32,541 bases of DNA from assembly GCA_005790605.1 (NCBI GenBank), contig SXUI01000033.1:1-32541 (forward strand), written 5' to 3'. Position numbers and translations under genes: made by a program. The notes below the pieces were generated by a model, which made no database searches, was not told the origin of the DNA, and saw nothing but the letters and a program-made list of their open reading frames with translations. Every line of letters starts with the position of its first letter. Positions within the stretch are counted from its first letter, which is position 1. The stretch is from Planctomycetia bacterium. GTDB lineage: Bacteria > Planctomycetota > Phycisphaerae > Phycisphaerales > SM1A02. This document shows, in pieces, positions 2,820-19,106 of the stretch.

Positions 2820-3956
2820 ATGCGAGCAGCCCTTGTATCGCTCTCACGCCAATGCGTGCTCCTGCTCGGAGCCAGCGCGGTTTCACTGGCGTCAGGCCAA
2901 GTTCCCGCGGGGCTTCCGACGGAGCGACCCGGACAAGGCATCGGCATTGGCCAGCCACTCCCGCGAAAGCCTGGAGCGACCGGCAGCATCGTCATTGGCG
3001 GACCGGTGTCAACGCCGCCGCTTCCATCCGATGTCGAACTGAATGCGATTTCGGTTGATCCATGGCTCGTTGCGATTGTTGAACAACTCGCTTCGGCATC
3101 GTTTGAGGAGCGCGTCGCTGCGAGTGATGCGTTACTGAAGAAGCAGGCGGATCAAAGGCAATTGATGGCATTGCTCGCGCGACCAAATCTTGATCGAGAA
3201 GCGCGTGCGCGACTGATTACAGCGTTGCAACAGCGCATTCTGAAGGCACCGCGCGGCGCGCTTGGTGTGCGAATGGAATCGATGCGCGATGAGCTGGGAG
3301 TTCGAATCACTGGCCTCGTTCCCGGCATGCCGGGCGAGAAACTGCTTCGGGTCGATGATCTCGTGTACGCGATTGATGGCGATGCAGTGTCCATTCGCGA
3401 AGACCTCATTCGCATCGTGCAATCGAAAGAACCCGGCACGACGGTAACCATTTCGGTCCACCGACAACAGCGTGACGCGAAAGGGAAAGGGCTTCTCGAC
3501 GCGAAGGATGCGCCGCTGTATGACAAGCACGACTTTGATATCGCGCTTGCAAGTACCGAGACGCTTGAGGTGAAGGGGGGACCAGAACCTGCGAACCTCT
3601 TGCCGAGTCCGATTTCGCTTGAGCGTGAGGCACTTGCGGCGGCAGTCGCGGAGCGATTCGGAGAAAAGCCGCAGTTGCTCGAAGCACCGGCGCGTGTTGA
3701 GGCGGAACAGAAGGCGCGCGCGCTTGATCAACATCCGGTCGTGCGCGAAGCACTCGCAAGTCTCGAACTCCTGCGAAAAGTAGGCGGAGCAGATGAGGCG
3801 ACGATGCAGTTGCTGCTGCTTGAGGCGACGAAGTTACGCAAGCAAGCAGATCGGCCTGGCGTGAGCGAAGTTGAACGGGCGCATCTGCACGCGCTCGCAG
3901 ATCGAGTTGACGCCATCGTCCTCGAGATCAGTCGCATCCGCGTTCGCATCCCTTGA
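2820..3956 (+). CDS. secreted PDZ-domain protein
   Basis: A 378-residue protein with an N-terminal signal peptide (Arg at 2, hydrophobic core about 10-24, probable cut after an Ala-Ser-Gly run). A helical segment follows at about 80-140, then one PDZ domain at about 145-220 (GALGVRM start, IDGDAV and VTISVHR strands). The remainder is charged and helical with no recognised catalytic domain, so this is not an HtrA protease: no serine protease part is present. PDZ domains bind C-terminal peptides, so a periplasmic or surface scaffold is a reasonable inference. I chose the ATG at 2820 over the GTG directly before it. The stop codon lies inside the structured repeat that starts at 3946. Confidence 0.72.
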   Translation: MRAALVSLSRQCVLLLGASAVSLASGQVPAGLPTERPGQGIGIGQPLPRKPGATGSIVIGGPVSTPPLPSDVELNAISVDPWLVAIVEQLASASFEERVAASDALLKKQADQRQLMALLARPNLDREARARLITALQQRILKAPRGALGVRMESMRDELGVRITGLVPGMPGEKLLRVDDLVYAIDGDAVSIREDLIRIVQSKEPGTTVTISVHRQQRDAKGKGLLDAKDAPLYDKHDFDIALASTETLEVKGGPEPANLLPSPISLEREALAAAVAERFGEKPQLLEAPARVEAEQKARALDQHPVVREALASLELLRKVGGADEATMQLLLLEATKLRKQADRPGVSEVERAHLHALADRVDAIVLEISRIRVRIP

Positions 3957-4054
3957 GCGCTCGTGCAAGATTCTCGCCCGCAACGGGCGAAATCGTTGCA
4001 CTCGCTTTGGACTCCGGCGGGCCGAGTGAATCGGCACCGCCGGAGATCGAGCTC
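3946..4054 (+). repeat. structured repeat element, copy A (two hairpins)
   Basis: This copy begins at the end of the PDZ gene and includes its stop codon. It holds a conserved 13-base block at 3953-3965 (TTGAGCGCTCGTG) and a hairpin with a 7-bp stem (3974-3980 with 3984-3990, loop CAA). A conserved 20-base block follows at 3997-4016. A second hairpin at 4012-4045 has a 9-bp outer stem, a 5-bp inner stem, a GTGAA loop and one bulged A at 4036. Copy B at 4217-4335 has the same order of parts in the opposite orientation with compensating changes in the stems. It may be a 3'-UTR structured RNA, a terminator type or a mobile palindromic repeat. Confidence 0.75.
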
Positions 4055-4079
4055 CGTGCGTCCGAAGACATTGAAATTG

Positions 4080-4203
4080 CGGCGGTCGCCCAACACCGAA
4101 TTCTTGCACTCGCGCCGCCGCACACCAGAGCGAGCGAGGAATCTGCGGCTTGGAGCAGATCCCAAGTCGCGAGCGCTCAACCCTCGCGCTCAAGGGATGC
4201 GTT
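4080..4203. repeat. degenerate patches of the same repeat family
   Basis: Bases 4188-4203 are the exact reverse complement of 3945-3960 at the start of copy A. The block at 4103-4112 (TTGCACTCGC) matches the conserved block of copy A in the forward sense. The ordered two-hairpin structure is not intact here. This looks like a decayed or rearranged third copy between the two well-formed ones. Confidence 0.4.
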
Positions 4204-4216
4204 CGATTGACGAACT

Positions 4217-4335
4217 GAGCCAGATCTCCGACCGTCGCGATTCATTCGCGCGGTCGGAGTCCAAAGCGAGTGCAGCGTTTTTGCCGTGGGCTTTGCCACG
4301 GCAAGAAACCTGCCACGAGCGCTCAAAGGGATGGC
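4217..4335 (-). repeat. structured repeat element, copy B (two hairpins)
   Basis: On the minus strand this copy starts just after the adenylate kinase stop codon and runs away from that gene. It shares the TTGAGCGCTCGTG block and an identical 20-base block (4255-4274) with copy A. Hairpin I has a 9-bp stem (4281-4289 with 4296-4304) of different sequence from copy A. Hairpin II (4226-4259) repeats the 9-bp plus 5-bp stem, the single bulged base and a 5-nt loop ending TGAA, with four base pairs changed on both sides. The conserved structure with changed stem sequence argues for selection on folding. Confidence 0.75.
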
Positions 4336-4362
4336 AATCCGCTCACGAAGTGAGCGGATTGC
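4334..4362 (-). terminator. 13-bp perfect hairpin at the 3' end of adk
   Basis: Bases 4334-4346 pair perfectly with 4350-4362 around a GAA loop. The hairpin contains the last codons and the stop codon of the adenylate kinase gene. There is no following T run on the minus strand, so it is not a classical intrinsic terminator. It abuts copy B of the structured repeat and may act with it in 3'-end formation or mRNA protection. Confidence 0.55.
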
Positions 4363-4963
4363 GGAAGTGCTTGTTTTGCACGGGAACGACAAGCTCAAGC
4401 ACGTGCTGTAGGACTTCCGATGGCGATCCCATCGCGTTGACTTCGCGAATGATCTCCTTCGGGTAGCAGTCGAGCACTGGCTTCGTCTCTTGGTCGTAGA
4501 CCTCAAAGCGCTTGCGGATCACCTTCTCGTCCGCGTCGTCAATGCGATTTTCCTTGAGCGCGCGGCGACGCATGCGTTGCACCATCGCTTCGATGTCCGG
4601 GCAAACGAGGTGGAGCACTTCGAGCACATCGAGATGTTTGTCGAGGTGCTTCGCTTGATTCACATTGCGCGGGATGCCGTCAAGCACCAAGATGTCCACA
4701 TGGGGCTTGTACAAACTCAGCACGGTTTGTGCGTGCATGTTCTGTCGCCACATCTCAATGGTGAGTTCGTCGGGCACAAGCTCGCCGCGCGAGGAGAACG
4801 CGAGGAACTGCTTCCCAAGGTCGCTCGACATGTCAAGCGAACGGAAGACATCTCCACAAGCCAGGTGAAAGAAGCCAGGCACCTTGCCGAGAATTTTTCC
4901 TTGCGTGCCCTTGCCAGCGCCAGGGGCGCCGAAGAGGAGAATTGTTTTGTAGCGACGAGGCAT
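4343..4963 (-). CDS. adk: adenylate kinase family nucleoside monophosphate kinase
   Basis: A 206-residue cytoplasmic kinase. The P-loop GAPGAGKGT is near residue 10. The NMP-binding region has GDVFRS and a GELVPDE stretch, LDGIPRN matches the family LDGFPR motif, and RIDDADEKVIRKR supplies the catalytic arginines. The segment where long adenylate kinases carry the LID domain is short, so this is a short-LID form. It moves phosphate from ATP to AMP, or possibly to CMP/UMP; the sequence does not settle the acceptor. The ATG at 4963 has an AAGGGA SD upstream, and the frame is open to 5221 without homology. The gene is divergent from recJ and convergent with the PDZ gene. Its last residues are encoded inside the hairpin at 4334-4362. 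Confidence 0.85.
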   Translation of the reverse strand: MPRRYKTILLFGAPGAGKGTQGKILGKVPGFFHLACGDVFRSLDMSSDLGKQFLAFSSRGELVPDELTIEMWRQNMHAQTVLSLYKPHVDILVLDGIPRNVNQAKHLDKHLDVLEVLHLVCPDIEAMVQRMRRRALKENRIDDADEKVIRKRFEVYDQETKPVLDCYPKEIIREVNAMGSPSEVLQHVLELVVPVQNKHFRNPLTS

Positions 4964-17571: not shown

Positions 17572-19106
17572 ACGCTTCGCGTGCTTCCATGCAGGCGCGC
17601 GTGCTTGCGTTCCTCTCGTTGCTCGCGCTTTGCGCCGTTGCTGGTGGATGGAACGCATGGACATACAGCGGGCAGGTTGTGGTCTGGCCGCAATCGCGAT
17701 GTGTTCGCTACTTGATGCCTGGATCGTTTCCTGCCGGATCTGTTCCGGCTCAACAGTTGGTGAGCGCGATGGGAGATTGGTCGAGCATTGATGGCTGCGC
17801 GTTTCGGTTTCTCTACGCCATTTTGCCGCAGGACTATCCGACGGATCATTTCGATGGCTACAGCGACACGAGCGCGGTGGGATCAGATGTTCTCGATCCT
17901 GGAGTGCTCGCAGTTACTTACGCCGTAAACGACGGTGCAGAGTGGTACGACATGGACATGGAGTTCAACAACGAGCCAATGGTGGTTGGTTGGAACTTCG
18001 TCGAGCAACCGACCTGTGCCGAAGAAGCCGTCCCAGGCTTGGACGGTTTTTGTTTCAAACTTGTCGCGCTCCATGAGTGCGGTCACTCCATTGGCCTCGC
18101 GCATGAGCCGACAGGAACAGAGACACCCGGCGCGCCTTGGATCGTGTGCTCGATGAATCCCAACTATGCGCACGGCGGATCGAATGGAGTTGCGCGGGTG
18201 TTCGAAACCCACGCGGACGACCGCGTTGGTGCGCGAACGCTTTACCCTGGAACCTCGACAGCGTTGATTGATCTCGCGACGCTGAACTTTTCATGGAGTT
18301 CAGAGTATGTCGGGAGCGCGTTCACGGTGCACTCGTCTCCGAGCTCGGCGTATCCCGGGGCGGAGTTCACGATTCGCAGCGCAATAGAGAATCGCGGGTC
18401 GATGGATGCGTTGGGTGTGACGCAGCGCATGTGGCTTTCGTCGGACGAGGTGATCGACCCAACAGACCTTTTACTCGCGGATCTGCTTTGGGACTTACCC
18501 GGCGGGGAGTTGATCGATTTCGATCTCGTGACCGATCTGCCATTCGATCTAGCATCGCGCGATTGGTATGTGCTGACGGTCCTCGACCCGCAACACATTT
18601 TCCCAGAACAGTTCGAAGATAACAACGACGCTGCGTATTGCGTGCCCGCTCATGTGTTGCAGTTTGCACCGGAGATTGTCGCGCCGCTTGGGCAGTTTTT
18701 TGGAACCGCTGGCGCGCCATGGGCAAGCCCAACGCCTCAGTTGACTCGACCTGTGAACATGGGACCAACGACTTGGTCGCTTGTCGCGTCGCCGCCCGTC
18801 GGAGTTTCGATCCATCCGCAAACCGGCGTCATCTCATGGCCGAATCCGGTTGCGAGCCAGTTTCAATACATGTTGTTCGTTCGAGCGACGAACGCCTCTG
18901 GCAGTGACACGGAGATCTTGTACCTCGGCATCGCGGAGTCGGCGTGCGTCGCAGATGTCAATGAAGATGGCGTGGTAAGCGCGCAGGACATCTCGCTCAT
19001 TCTCGCCTACTGGGGAAGCGCCTCGACGATTGCGGATCTTGATCACGATGGCATCGTCGCCGCGTCTGATCTCGCCATCGTGTTGAGCGCGTGGGGACCC
19101 TGTTAG
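17568..19106 (+). CDS. secreted matrixin metalloprotease with dockerin-like C-terminal repeats
   Basis: A 512-residue protein. After a signal peptide (core about 12-25) comes a zinc metalloprotease domain with HECGHSIGLAH at residues 169-179, the HExxHxxGxxH signature, and a CSMN Met-turn near 198, as in matrixins (M10). A CARDB- or Ig-like beta region (about 245-370) and a further beta domain (about 375-450) follow. The tail has two EF-hand-like calcium repeats, DVNEDGVVSAQDISLILAYWG and a DLDHDG copy, the dockerin-type end common in planctomycete secreted proteins. It probably cuts proteins outside the cell or on its surface. The ATG at 17568 overlaps the preceding stop as ATGA; the frame continues further upstream but without a signal peptide. 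Confidence 0.88.
   Translation: MNASRASMQARVLAFLSLLALCAVAGGWNAWTYSGQVVVWPQSRCVRYLMPGSFPAGSVPAQQLVSAMGDWSSIDGCAFRFLYAILPQDYPTDHFDGYSDTSAVGSDVLDPGVLAVTYAVNDGAEWYDMDMEFNNEPMVVGWNFVEQPTCAEEAVPGLDGFCFKLVALHECGHSIGLAHEPTGTETPGAPWIVCSMNPNYAHGGSNGVARVFETHADDRVGARTLYPGTSTALIDLATLNFSWSSEYVGSAFTVHSSPSSAYPGAEFTIRSAIENRGSMDALGVTQRMWLSSDEVIDPTDLLLADLLWDLPGGELIDFDLVTDLPFDLASRDWYVLTVLDPQHIFPEQFEDNNDAAYCVPAHVLQFAPEIVAPLGQFFGTAGAPWASPTPQLTRPVNMGPTTWSLVASPPVGVSIHPQTGVISWPNPVASQFQYMLFVRATNASGSDTEILYLGIAESACVADVNEDGVVSAQDISLILAYWGSASTIADLDHDGIVAASDLAIVLSAWGPC

Follow-up and report, generated by a model that had tools for sequence, protein, structure and literature searches.

A probably mobile, REPIN-like palindromic repeat at gene ends of a planctomycete and its close lake relatives

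The window analysed here, positions 1 to 32,541 of contig SXUI01000033.1 in the Planctomycetia bacterium assembly GCA_005790605.1, carries between the adenylate kinase gene adk and a gene for a PDZ protein several members of a family of short DNA repeats. These repeats form hairpins, number about 130 and are spread between the genes of this planctomycete and of its close lake relatives. The family is probably a new, mobile palindromic repeat resembling REPINs, the doublets of repetitive extragenic palindromes (REPs). The explanation that we favour, and consider likely, is that the repeats form a lineage-specific family of mobile palindromes, non-autonomous DNA elements working like REPINs or bacterial interspersed mosaic elements (BIMEs). 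Its copies are numerous, share a structure with covarying stems, pair up at preferred spacings, lie at gene 3′ ends, occur in tandem or nested in one another, and are missing from some orthologous sites in relatives. An earlier note on this DNA had offered three readings for two of the copies, namely an RNA family of 3′ untranslated regions (3′-UTRs), a type of terminator and a palindromic mobile repeat; the last of these was supported by 133 matches in the host genome, inverted dimers of fixed spacing, nested copies and empty orthologous sites, and the other two were not. No description of the family was recognised in the open-access literature, judged by titles and abstract openings.

In the host genome (G000, 3.03 Mb), a covariance model derived from 40 of its copies found 133 matches at E ≤ 0.01. 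A separate model search of 287,076 bases, including the window, also returned 133 matches, at E ≤ 1e-4, which fell to 125 once overlaps were removed; the identical number is a coincidence. Matches were found in seven of 61 genomes, the host counted, and none in the other 54 at the filters used. Within the genus, there were at least 63 in G001, 38 in G002 and 40 in G003. Two genomes from other genera of the family, G031 (21 matches) and G025 (two matches), have copies of the same plan with other stems; the single match in a third, G027 (24.4 bits), looks like chance and was rejected as a true copy. A pattern scan of named genomes gave at least 80 stretches; those listed come from eight assemblies, as distinguished by accession prefix, of which seven are titled planctomycetes or uncultured bacterium and one Limnohabitans. 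The Limnohabitans sp. MAG13 records that carry the repeat (L122, L141, L152) may have a wrong title or bin. Viral contigs contained no element by exact pattern. Freshwater Phycisphaerae genomes assembled from metagenomes have been placed in the CL500-3 clade under the proposed name Nemodlikiaceae (PMC6461901). In the host assembly, contigs C5, C8, C11, C25, C32, C46, C74, C76 and C80 have an end that falls inside repeats or no more than about 400 bases from them, so the repeats probably break the assembly.

The two inverted structured copies that the earlier note had described in the window exist, at coordinates correct to within about 10 bases; they are here called A and B. The note overlooked a third, degenerate copy on the minus strand between them. 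The elements in this gap are as follows.

3951 to 4057, plus strand: copy A, an alpha-type two-hairpin unit (106.8 bits; fold z = −6.97)
3956 to 4006, plus strand: hairpin I of copy A as folded, with a TCGCCCG/CGGGCGA tip, a bulged C in the 5′ arm and a bulged G in the 3′ arm
4012 to 4045, plus strand: hairpin II of copy A, with 9 bp, a bulged A (4036), 5 bp and the loop GTGAA (4026-4030)
4058 to 4064, no strand: spacer from copy A to the inverted third copy, its 7 nt being the most frequent dimer spacing (15 of 27)
4065 to 4182, minus strand: third copy, beta-type, partly degenerate, with an enlarged hairpin II loop (58.1 bits)
4186 to 4201, minus strand: extra end fragment CGCATCCCTTGAGCGC before the third copy, a perfect inverted match to 3945-3960
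4214 to 4328, minus strand: copy B, an alpha-type unit (117.2 bits; fold z = −6.83)
4226 to 4259, minus strand: hairpin II of copy B, with 9 bp, a bulged A, 5 bp and the loop ATGAA
4265 to 4323, minus strand: hairpin I of copy B in an isolated-hairpin fold, with a TTGCCGTGG/CCACGGCAA tip and basal AGCG/CGCT pairs; the whole-copy fold pairs the base differently

Copies A and B follow the plan TTGAGCGCTC, hairpin I, CACTCGCTTTGGA, hairpin II, and share, in the same order, TTGAGCGCTCGTG (13 bases) and TGCACTCGCTTTGGACTCCG (20 bases), the two blocks that the earlier note had seen in both. Its account of the hairpins was likewise accurate: hairpin II has a stem of 9 bp plus 5 bp with a bulged A and an RTGAA loop, exactly four of its pairs differ between A and B, all four differences are compensated, and hairpin I keeps its place with a different stem sequence. 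When folded as single-stranded DNA, neither A nor B was equalled by any of 200 shuffles (z scores as listed). Each copy lies at the 3′ end of its own gene, as had also been claimed. Copy A overlaps the stop of the plus-strand PDZ gene, its own TTGA providing the stop codon (TGA, 3954-3956), and copy B starts 14 nt downstream of the stop of the minus-strand adk gene. The third copy is the inverted partner of copy A, 7 nt away from it.

Across the family, the basic unit of about 105 nt consists of TTGAGCGCTC, hairpin I, [CA]CTCGCTTT[GC]GA and hairpin II, the latter usually preceded by T[GC]GA; hairpin I occurs in four types, which we label alpha, beta, gamma and delta. In the 40 host copies, 94.5% of hairpin II cells are paired and nine of the 14 pairs have changed on both sides, giving a covariation score of 0.419; shuffles scored 0.119, and sliding the pairing never gave more than 0.118. 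The 133 host matches (93.0% paired, 10 of 14 pairs, score 0.366) and 42 copies from three other species (86.8% paired, 12 of 14 pairs, 0.386 versus 0.098) gave similar values, both alignments being fitted to the model and hence leaning towards it. Since the copies are related, the pair changes are not independent events; the slid controls keep this relatedness and stay low. Neither outcome that the earlier note had named as refuting, a lack of further copies or stems that fail to covary in them, was found: the covariation noticed between two copies extends to the many further ones. The 40-copy host alignment, from which loops and bulges of hairpin II were counted, has the loop GTGAA in 31 copies, ATGAA in eight and TTGAA in one, and an A as the bulge in 37. 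Alpha hairpins I, chosen by a fixed layout that partly presets their loop, pairing and bulge position, comprise 45 distinct sequences with many different tips; their 5′ bulge is C in 42, and their 3′ bulge is G in 33, A in three and absent in nine. With conserved loops, mostly kept bulges and changed pairs, the stems of these elements change while the loops and, mostly, the bulges stay.

Such covariation could in principle come about without selection, if quasi-palindrome correction perfected the stems and recombination shuffled stem types among copies. The 93.0% pairing over all host matches, the scarcity of G-U intermediates and the many combinations in which hairpin I and hairpin II stem types occur agree with this idea. 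The same correction should also erase the bulged A of hairpin II (37 of 40) and the bulged C of hairpin I (42 of 45), yet both persist, and it accounts neither for the spread of the family nor for its location; we regard this reading as unlikely.

Units are often combined. The commonest composite, a dimer of roughly 225 nt, consists of two inverted units with their tails inward, usually 7 or 21 nt apart: among 27 tail-to-tail neighbour pairs, 15 are separated by 7 nt and eight by 21 nt, measured between model ends, and this preferred spacing marks the inverted dimer as the main composite form, as in REPINs. Head-to-tail (29) and head-to-head (four) pairs have scattered spacings, and 27 units are isolated. 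In G001, units are also arrayed head to tail, one example having a period of 107. At six loci, complete or partial units are nested in a hairpin loop of another unit, in gamma hairpin I at L042/L080, L055, L012 and L084 and in hairpin II at L063 and L017. Cluster flanks examined as split hairpins showed no excess. Two loci have additional repeats. At L112 (390-470), a run of 13-bp repeats of the element's own tip (GCTCAAGGGACCC), four of them exact and consecutive, possibly represents footprints of repeated insertion and loss. At L056, a 32-nt stretch with a terminator-like hairpin is directly repeated (2189-2220 and 2473-2504) on either side of a composite element; the G002 orthologue of this locus has one terminator-like hairpin, between two half-elements.

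With its inverted outer ends and fixed spacing, the dimer might also be a miniature inverted-repeat transposable element (MITE) of a DDE transposon, the outer ends CTTGAGCGCTCG/CGAGCGCTCAAG serving as terminal inverted repeats cut by an insertion sequence transposase. For 60 clusters, target-site duplications were not above chance when compared with mismatched flanks. Solo units and head-to-tail tandems are common, the covarying hairpins would be left unexplained, and no transposase was among the Pfam-named recurring neighbour genes, although no general DDE transposase search was made. We judge a MITE origin very unlikely. NEMIS and ERIC are MITE-like repeats. The present family shares with them that it is short, palindromic, dispersed, intergenic and devoid of coding capacity, and differs in the lack of a detected target-site duplication, in the covarying hairpins inside the unit and in the two-unit dimers. 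Both repeats are named in PMC3116915.

In the genome, the family lies at gene 3′ ends, mostly between convergent genes. Of 65 clusters, 34 lie between convergent genes, 22 between co-directional genes and none between divergent genes, and nine have a neighbour beyond the end of the contig or stretch; genes were called by a codon-usage script, with some starts misplaced. With a stricter gene list, gaps with elements were convergent in 33 cases, co-directional in 22 and divergent in one, versus 14, 98 and 29 of the gaps without elements (Fisher test, p = 3.6e-12 for the convergent enrichment and 3.4e-4 for the divergent deficit). In 63 of the 65 clusters, any overlap with a called gene is limited to 40 nt. 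For 57 units the 5′ end faces the 3′ end of a gene, at a position between 20 nt within the gene and 60 nt past it, and in 11 of these the TGA within TTGAGC is the exact stop codon, as at copy A. REPs also lie at gene 3′ ends (PMC3733652).

Occupancy of these sites differs between relatives. G002 has 23 bp between adk and the PDZ gene, and its PDZ protein ends in EISRLGK; in G003 the gap is 89 bp long and contains a degenerate remnant, and the protein ends in EISRLP; the host has a gap of 386 bp and the C-terminus EISRIRVRIP. Eight host sites were matched in 40 stretches of G003 chosen by contig number (548,006 bases), leaving out those loci of relatives that had been picked for holding an element; four of the eight are empty (23-182 bp, versus 244-562 bp in the host). 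The empty orthologous sites indicate that the elements turn over.

The same location is what would be expected if the hairpins acted in the mRNA as a stabiliser or processing site at its 3′ end and covaried under selection on the RNA. This 3′-UTR reading draws on the 57 units that face a gene 3′ end with 11 exact stop codons, on the enrichment of convergent gaps and on the strong folds of copies A and B. Selection on RNA of the reading strand would make G.T mismatches exceed A.C mismatches. The counts lend this no support: mismatches in 86 host hairpins II were G.T in nine cases, A.C in 13 and others in 19, and those in 49 hairpins from other genomes were G.T in one and A.C in 20, some of these A.C cases resulting from a shifted bulge (picking both sets by an [AGT]TGAA loop and at least 9 of 13 pairs partly predetermined their loop, pairing and bulge position). 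G-U cells make up 3 of 560 in the 40-copy hairpin II alignment, half of the eight orthologous sites are empty in G003, and many units are in inverted pairs, so that one member is antisense to the other. No Rfam family scored above its gathering threshold in the whole window, 3900-4400 having only two matches (E = 0.62 and 0.8), and elements in five other loci were negative too, the lone match being RNase P elsewhere in L054. A scan for GC-rich hairpins followed by T-runs found no terminator-like site in 3900-4420, and alpha hairpin I has its T-run 5′ and its A-run 3′ of the stem, on either strand. An intrinsic terminator role is unlikely, and we consider it quite unlikely that the family is a 3′-UTR RNA element, one of the three readings that the note had offered.

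Imperfect hairpins with extrahelical bases and a variable tip also recall the attC sites of integrons, which are substrates of a tyrosine recombinase and have the consensus boxes GTTRRRY/RYYYAAC. Bulges are kept next to a variable tip here as well, and three tyrosine recombinases are encoded in the host genome. By inspection, the unit ends TTGAGCG and CGCTTT lack the boxes. All three recombinases (115, 103 and 27 bits) remain far under the 265-bit cut-off of the integron-integrase model TIGR02249, two of them scoring best as XerC and XerD, slightly under those cut-offs. Called genes lie inside only two of the 65 clusters; clusters nearly without called genes mean that there are no cassettes. 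The attC reading is largely refuted, and we rate it as highly improbable.

Under the preferred explanation of REPIN-like mobile DNA, a trans-acting protein would bind the hairpins in DNA that is single-stranded or extruded, recognising the loop and bulges rather than the stem sequence. Changes in the stems would be compensated because only paired stems are recognised, and hairpin-templated repair may help to keep them paired. The protein would copy or move the unit or dimer without target-site duplication, and selection would purge insertions that hit promoters or genes, so that copies at 3′ ends remain.

Several observations weigh against this explanation. No candidate enzyme was found: the Pfam model Y1_Tnp, which covers the REP-associated tyrosine transposases (RAYTs), had no match in G000 at E ≤ 10 or in G001 and G003 at E ≤ 1, and no transposase was present among the 19 Pfam-scanned members (five without a family) of the seven protein clusters, with 28 members, that recur as neighbours of host copies. 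Neither insertion nor excision was seen occurring. Presence and absence could include loss by deletion, and the other four of the eight matched sites are occupied in G003 too, which fits old shared sites. Covariation could arise by hairpin-templated correction without any binding protein. At the hairpin II bulge, other genomes have A in 31 of 49 hairpins and G in 17, partly in a shifted register. The fold of the third window copy is not above chance (z = −1.35; 23 of 200 shuffles equally good). Finally, a GTAG/CGTC foot like that of REPs is not clearly recognisable: GTCC or ATCC precedes [CT]TTGAGC in 24 of 69 host cases, and GTAG stands directly before TTGAGC in 12 of 74 cases from other genomes.

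The genomes are drafts in many contigs, often ending in these repeats, so a repeat-flanked gene could be missed. G002 had five weak Y1_Tnp matches, and four of the five loci (L154, L157, L160, L161) were scanned and contained no element; the Y1-type protein at L154 (1459-2619) matches the model for REP-associated transposases with a score under the cut-off. The IS110-type family PF02371 had no match in four genomes at E ≤ 0.01, and reverse transcriptases were absent from G000, G002 and G003, with one in G001. Families among the scanned neighbours were dockerin, SRP54, ABC, M24 peptidase, DHDPS, amidotransferase and similar. Dockerin domains are found at the C-terminus of several otherwise different host proteins (window 17769-19106, L045, L051, L027) and explain, at least in part, a 16-member similarity cluster.

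Like REPs, REPINs and BIMEs, the family consists of extragenic imperfect palindromes in many copies, with inverted dimers at preferred spacing and alternative complementary stems; shared, too, is a location close to stop codons, which the repeats occasionally supply, in gaps flanked by convergent or co-directional genes (PMC3116915, PMC3733652). It differs in having two hairpins in a unit of about 105 nt, where a REP unit is a single palindrome of about 20-60 nt (PMC3116915, PMC3733652). Further differences are the kept RTGAA loop and bulged A and the lack of a detected RAYT in G000, G001 or G003. Class 3 TnpA-Y1 (HUH) proteins are described as occurring mainly in Planctomycetes and going with high-copy atypical hairpins that have a CnGA foot (PMC6006769). 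The present family likewise has planctomycete hosts and high-copy atypical DNA hairpins, but hairpin II is usually preceded by T[GC]GA, which is not CnGA, and the Pfam model found no Y1 protein in the host, class 3 having its own profile (PMC6006769).

The delta subtype has a hypervariable loop within an otherwise conserved hairpin I. Stem and flanks are near-invariant (36 nt, 91% mean pairwise identity), whereas the 28-nt loop has 48% identity. Its length is constant, 27 distinct modules from the host and G003 being alike and one 1 nt shorter in a search that also covered lengths up to about 5 nt longer. The delta pattern occurs 24 times in G000 and seven times in G003, and not in G001, G002, G031 or G025. 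Examples are:

L056, 2302 to 2427: delta module
L054, 2336 to 2461: delta module
L010, 2559 to 2684: delta module

Loops differ between most loci and are shared by close tandem copies (identical at C22 and C5; 31/32 at L054, L056 and L163); at two sites shared with G003, 17/28 and 10/28 positions are identical. The loop might serve as an address or guide during mobilisation, or it might encode a peptide; one frame of the opposite strand, out of six frames tried, has no stop in 243 codons, and 4 of 1000 column shuffles were as low. That it is a diversified or programmable cassette is improbable. Several results count against a cassette: at L055 a pair of modules 211 nt apart differs (11/28), loops at two separate loci share 25/28, loops have no excess similarity to their own flanks and no matches within the own composite beyond tandem copies, one loop used to search two whole genomes matched only itself, and G000 has no reverse transcriptase. 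An origin from a diversity-generating retroelement was rejected, with the reverse transcriptase results given above.

The neighbouring genes in the window are ordinary, encoding SecG, YicC, an APH-family kinase and the PDZ protein on one side and adenylate kinase and RecJ on the other. Immediately outside copy B, at 4334-4362, there is a hairpin of 13 perfect base pairs, GCAATCCGCTCAC/GTGAGCGGATTGC, which overlaps the stop codon of adk and is not visible in the G003 and G002 orthologues.

Because the repeats lie at gene ends, in some cases supply stop codons or alter C-termini, and have contig ends nearby, they matter for annotation and assembly. Spread without a RAYT is left open for CGTC-type repeats in PMC3733652, and the present family offers a large, internally replicated test set, with more than 250 matches in four related genomes, for a palindromic repeat that has spread without a detectable RAYT. 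With stems that vary freely, its conserved loop and bulges delimit the features that a binding protein would need to recognise.

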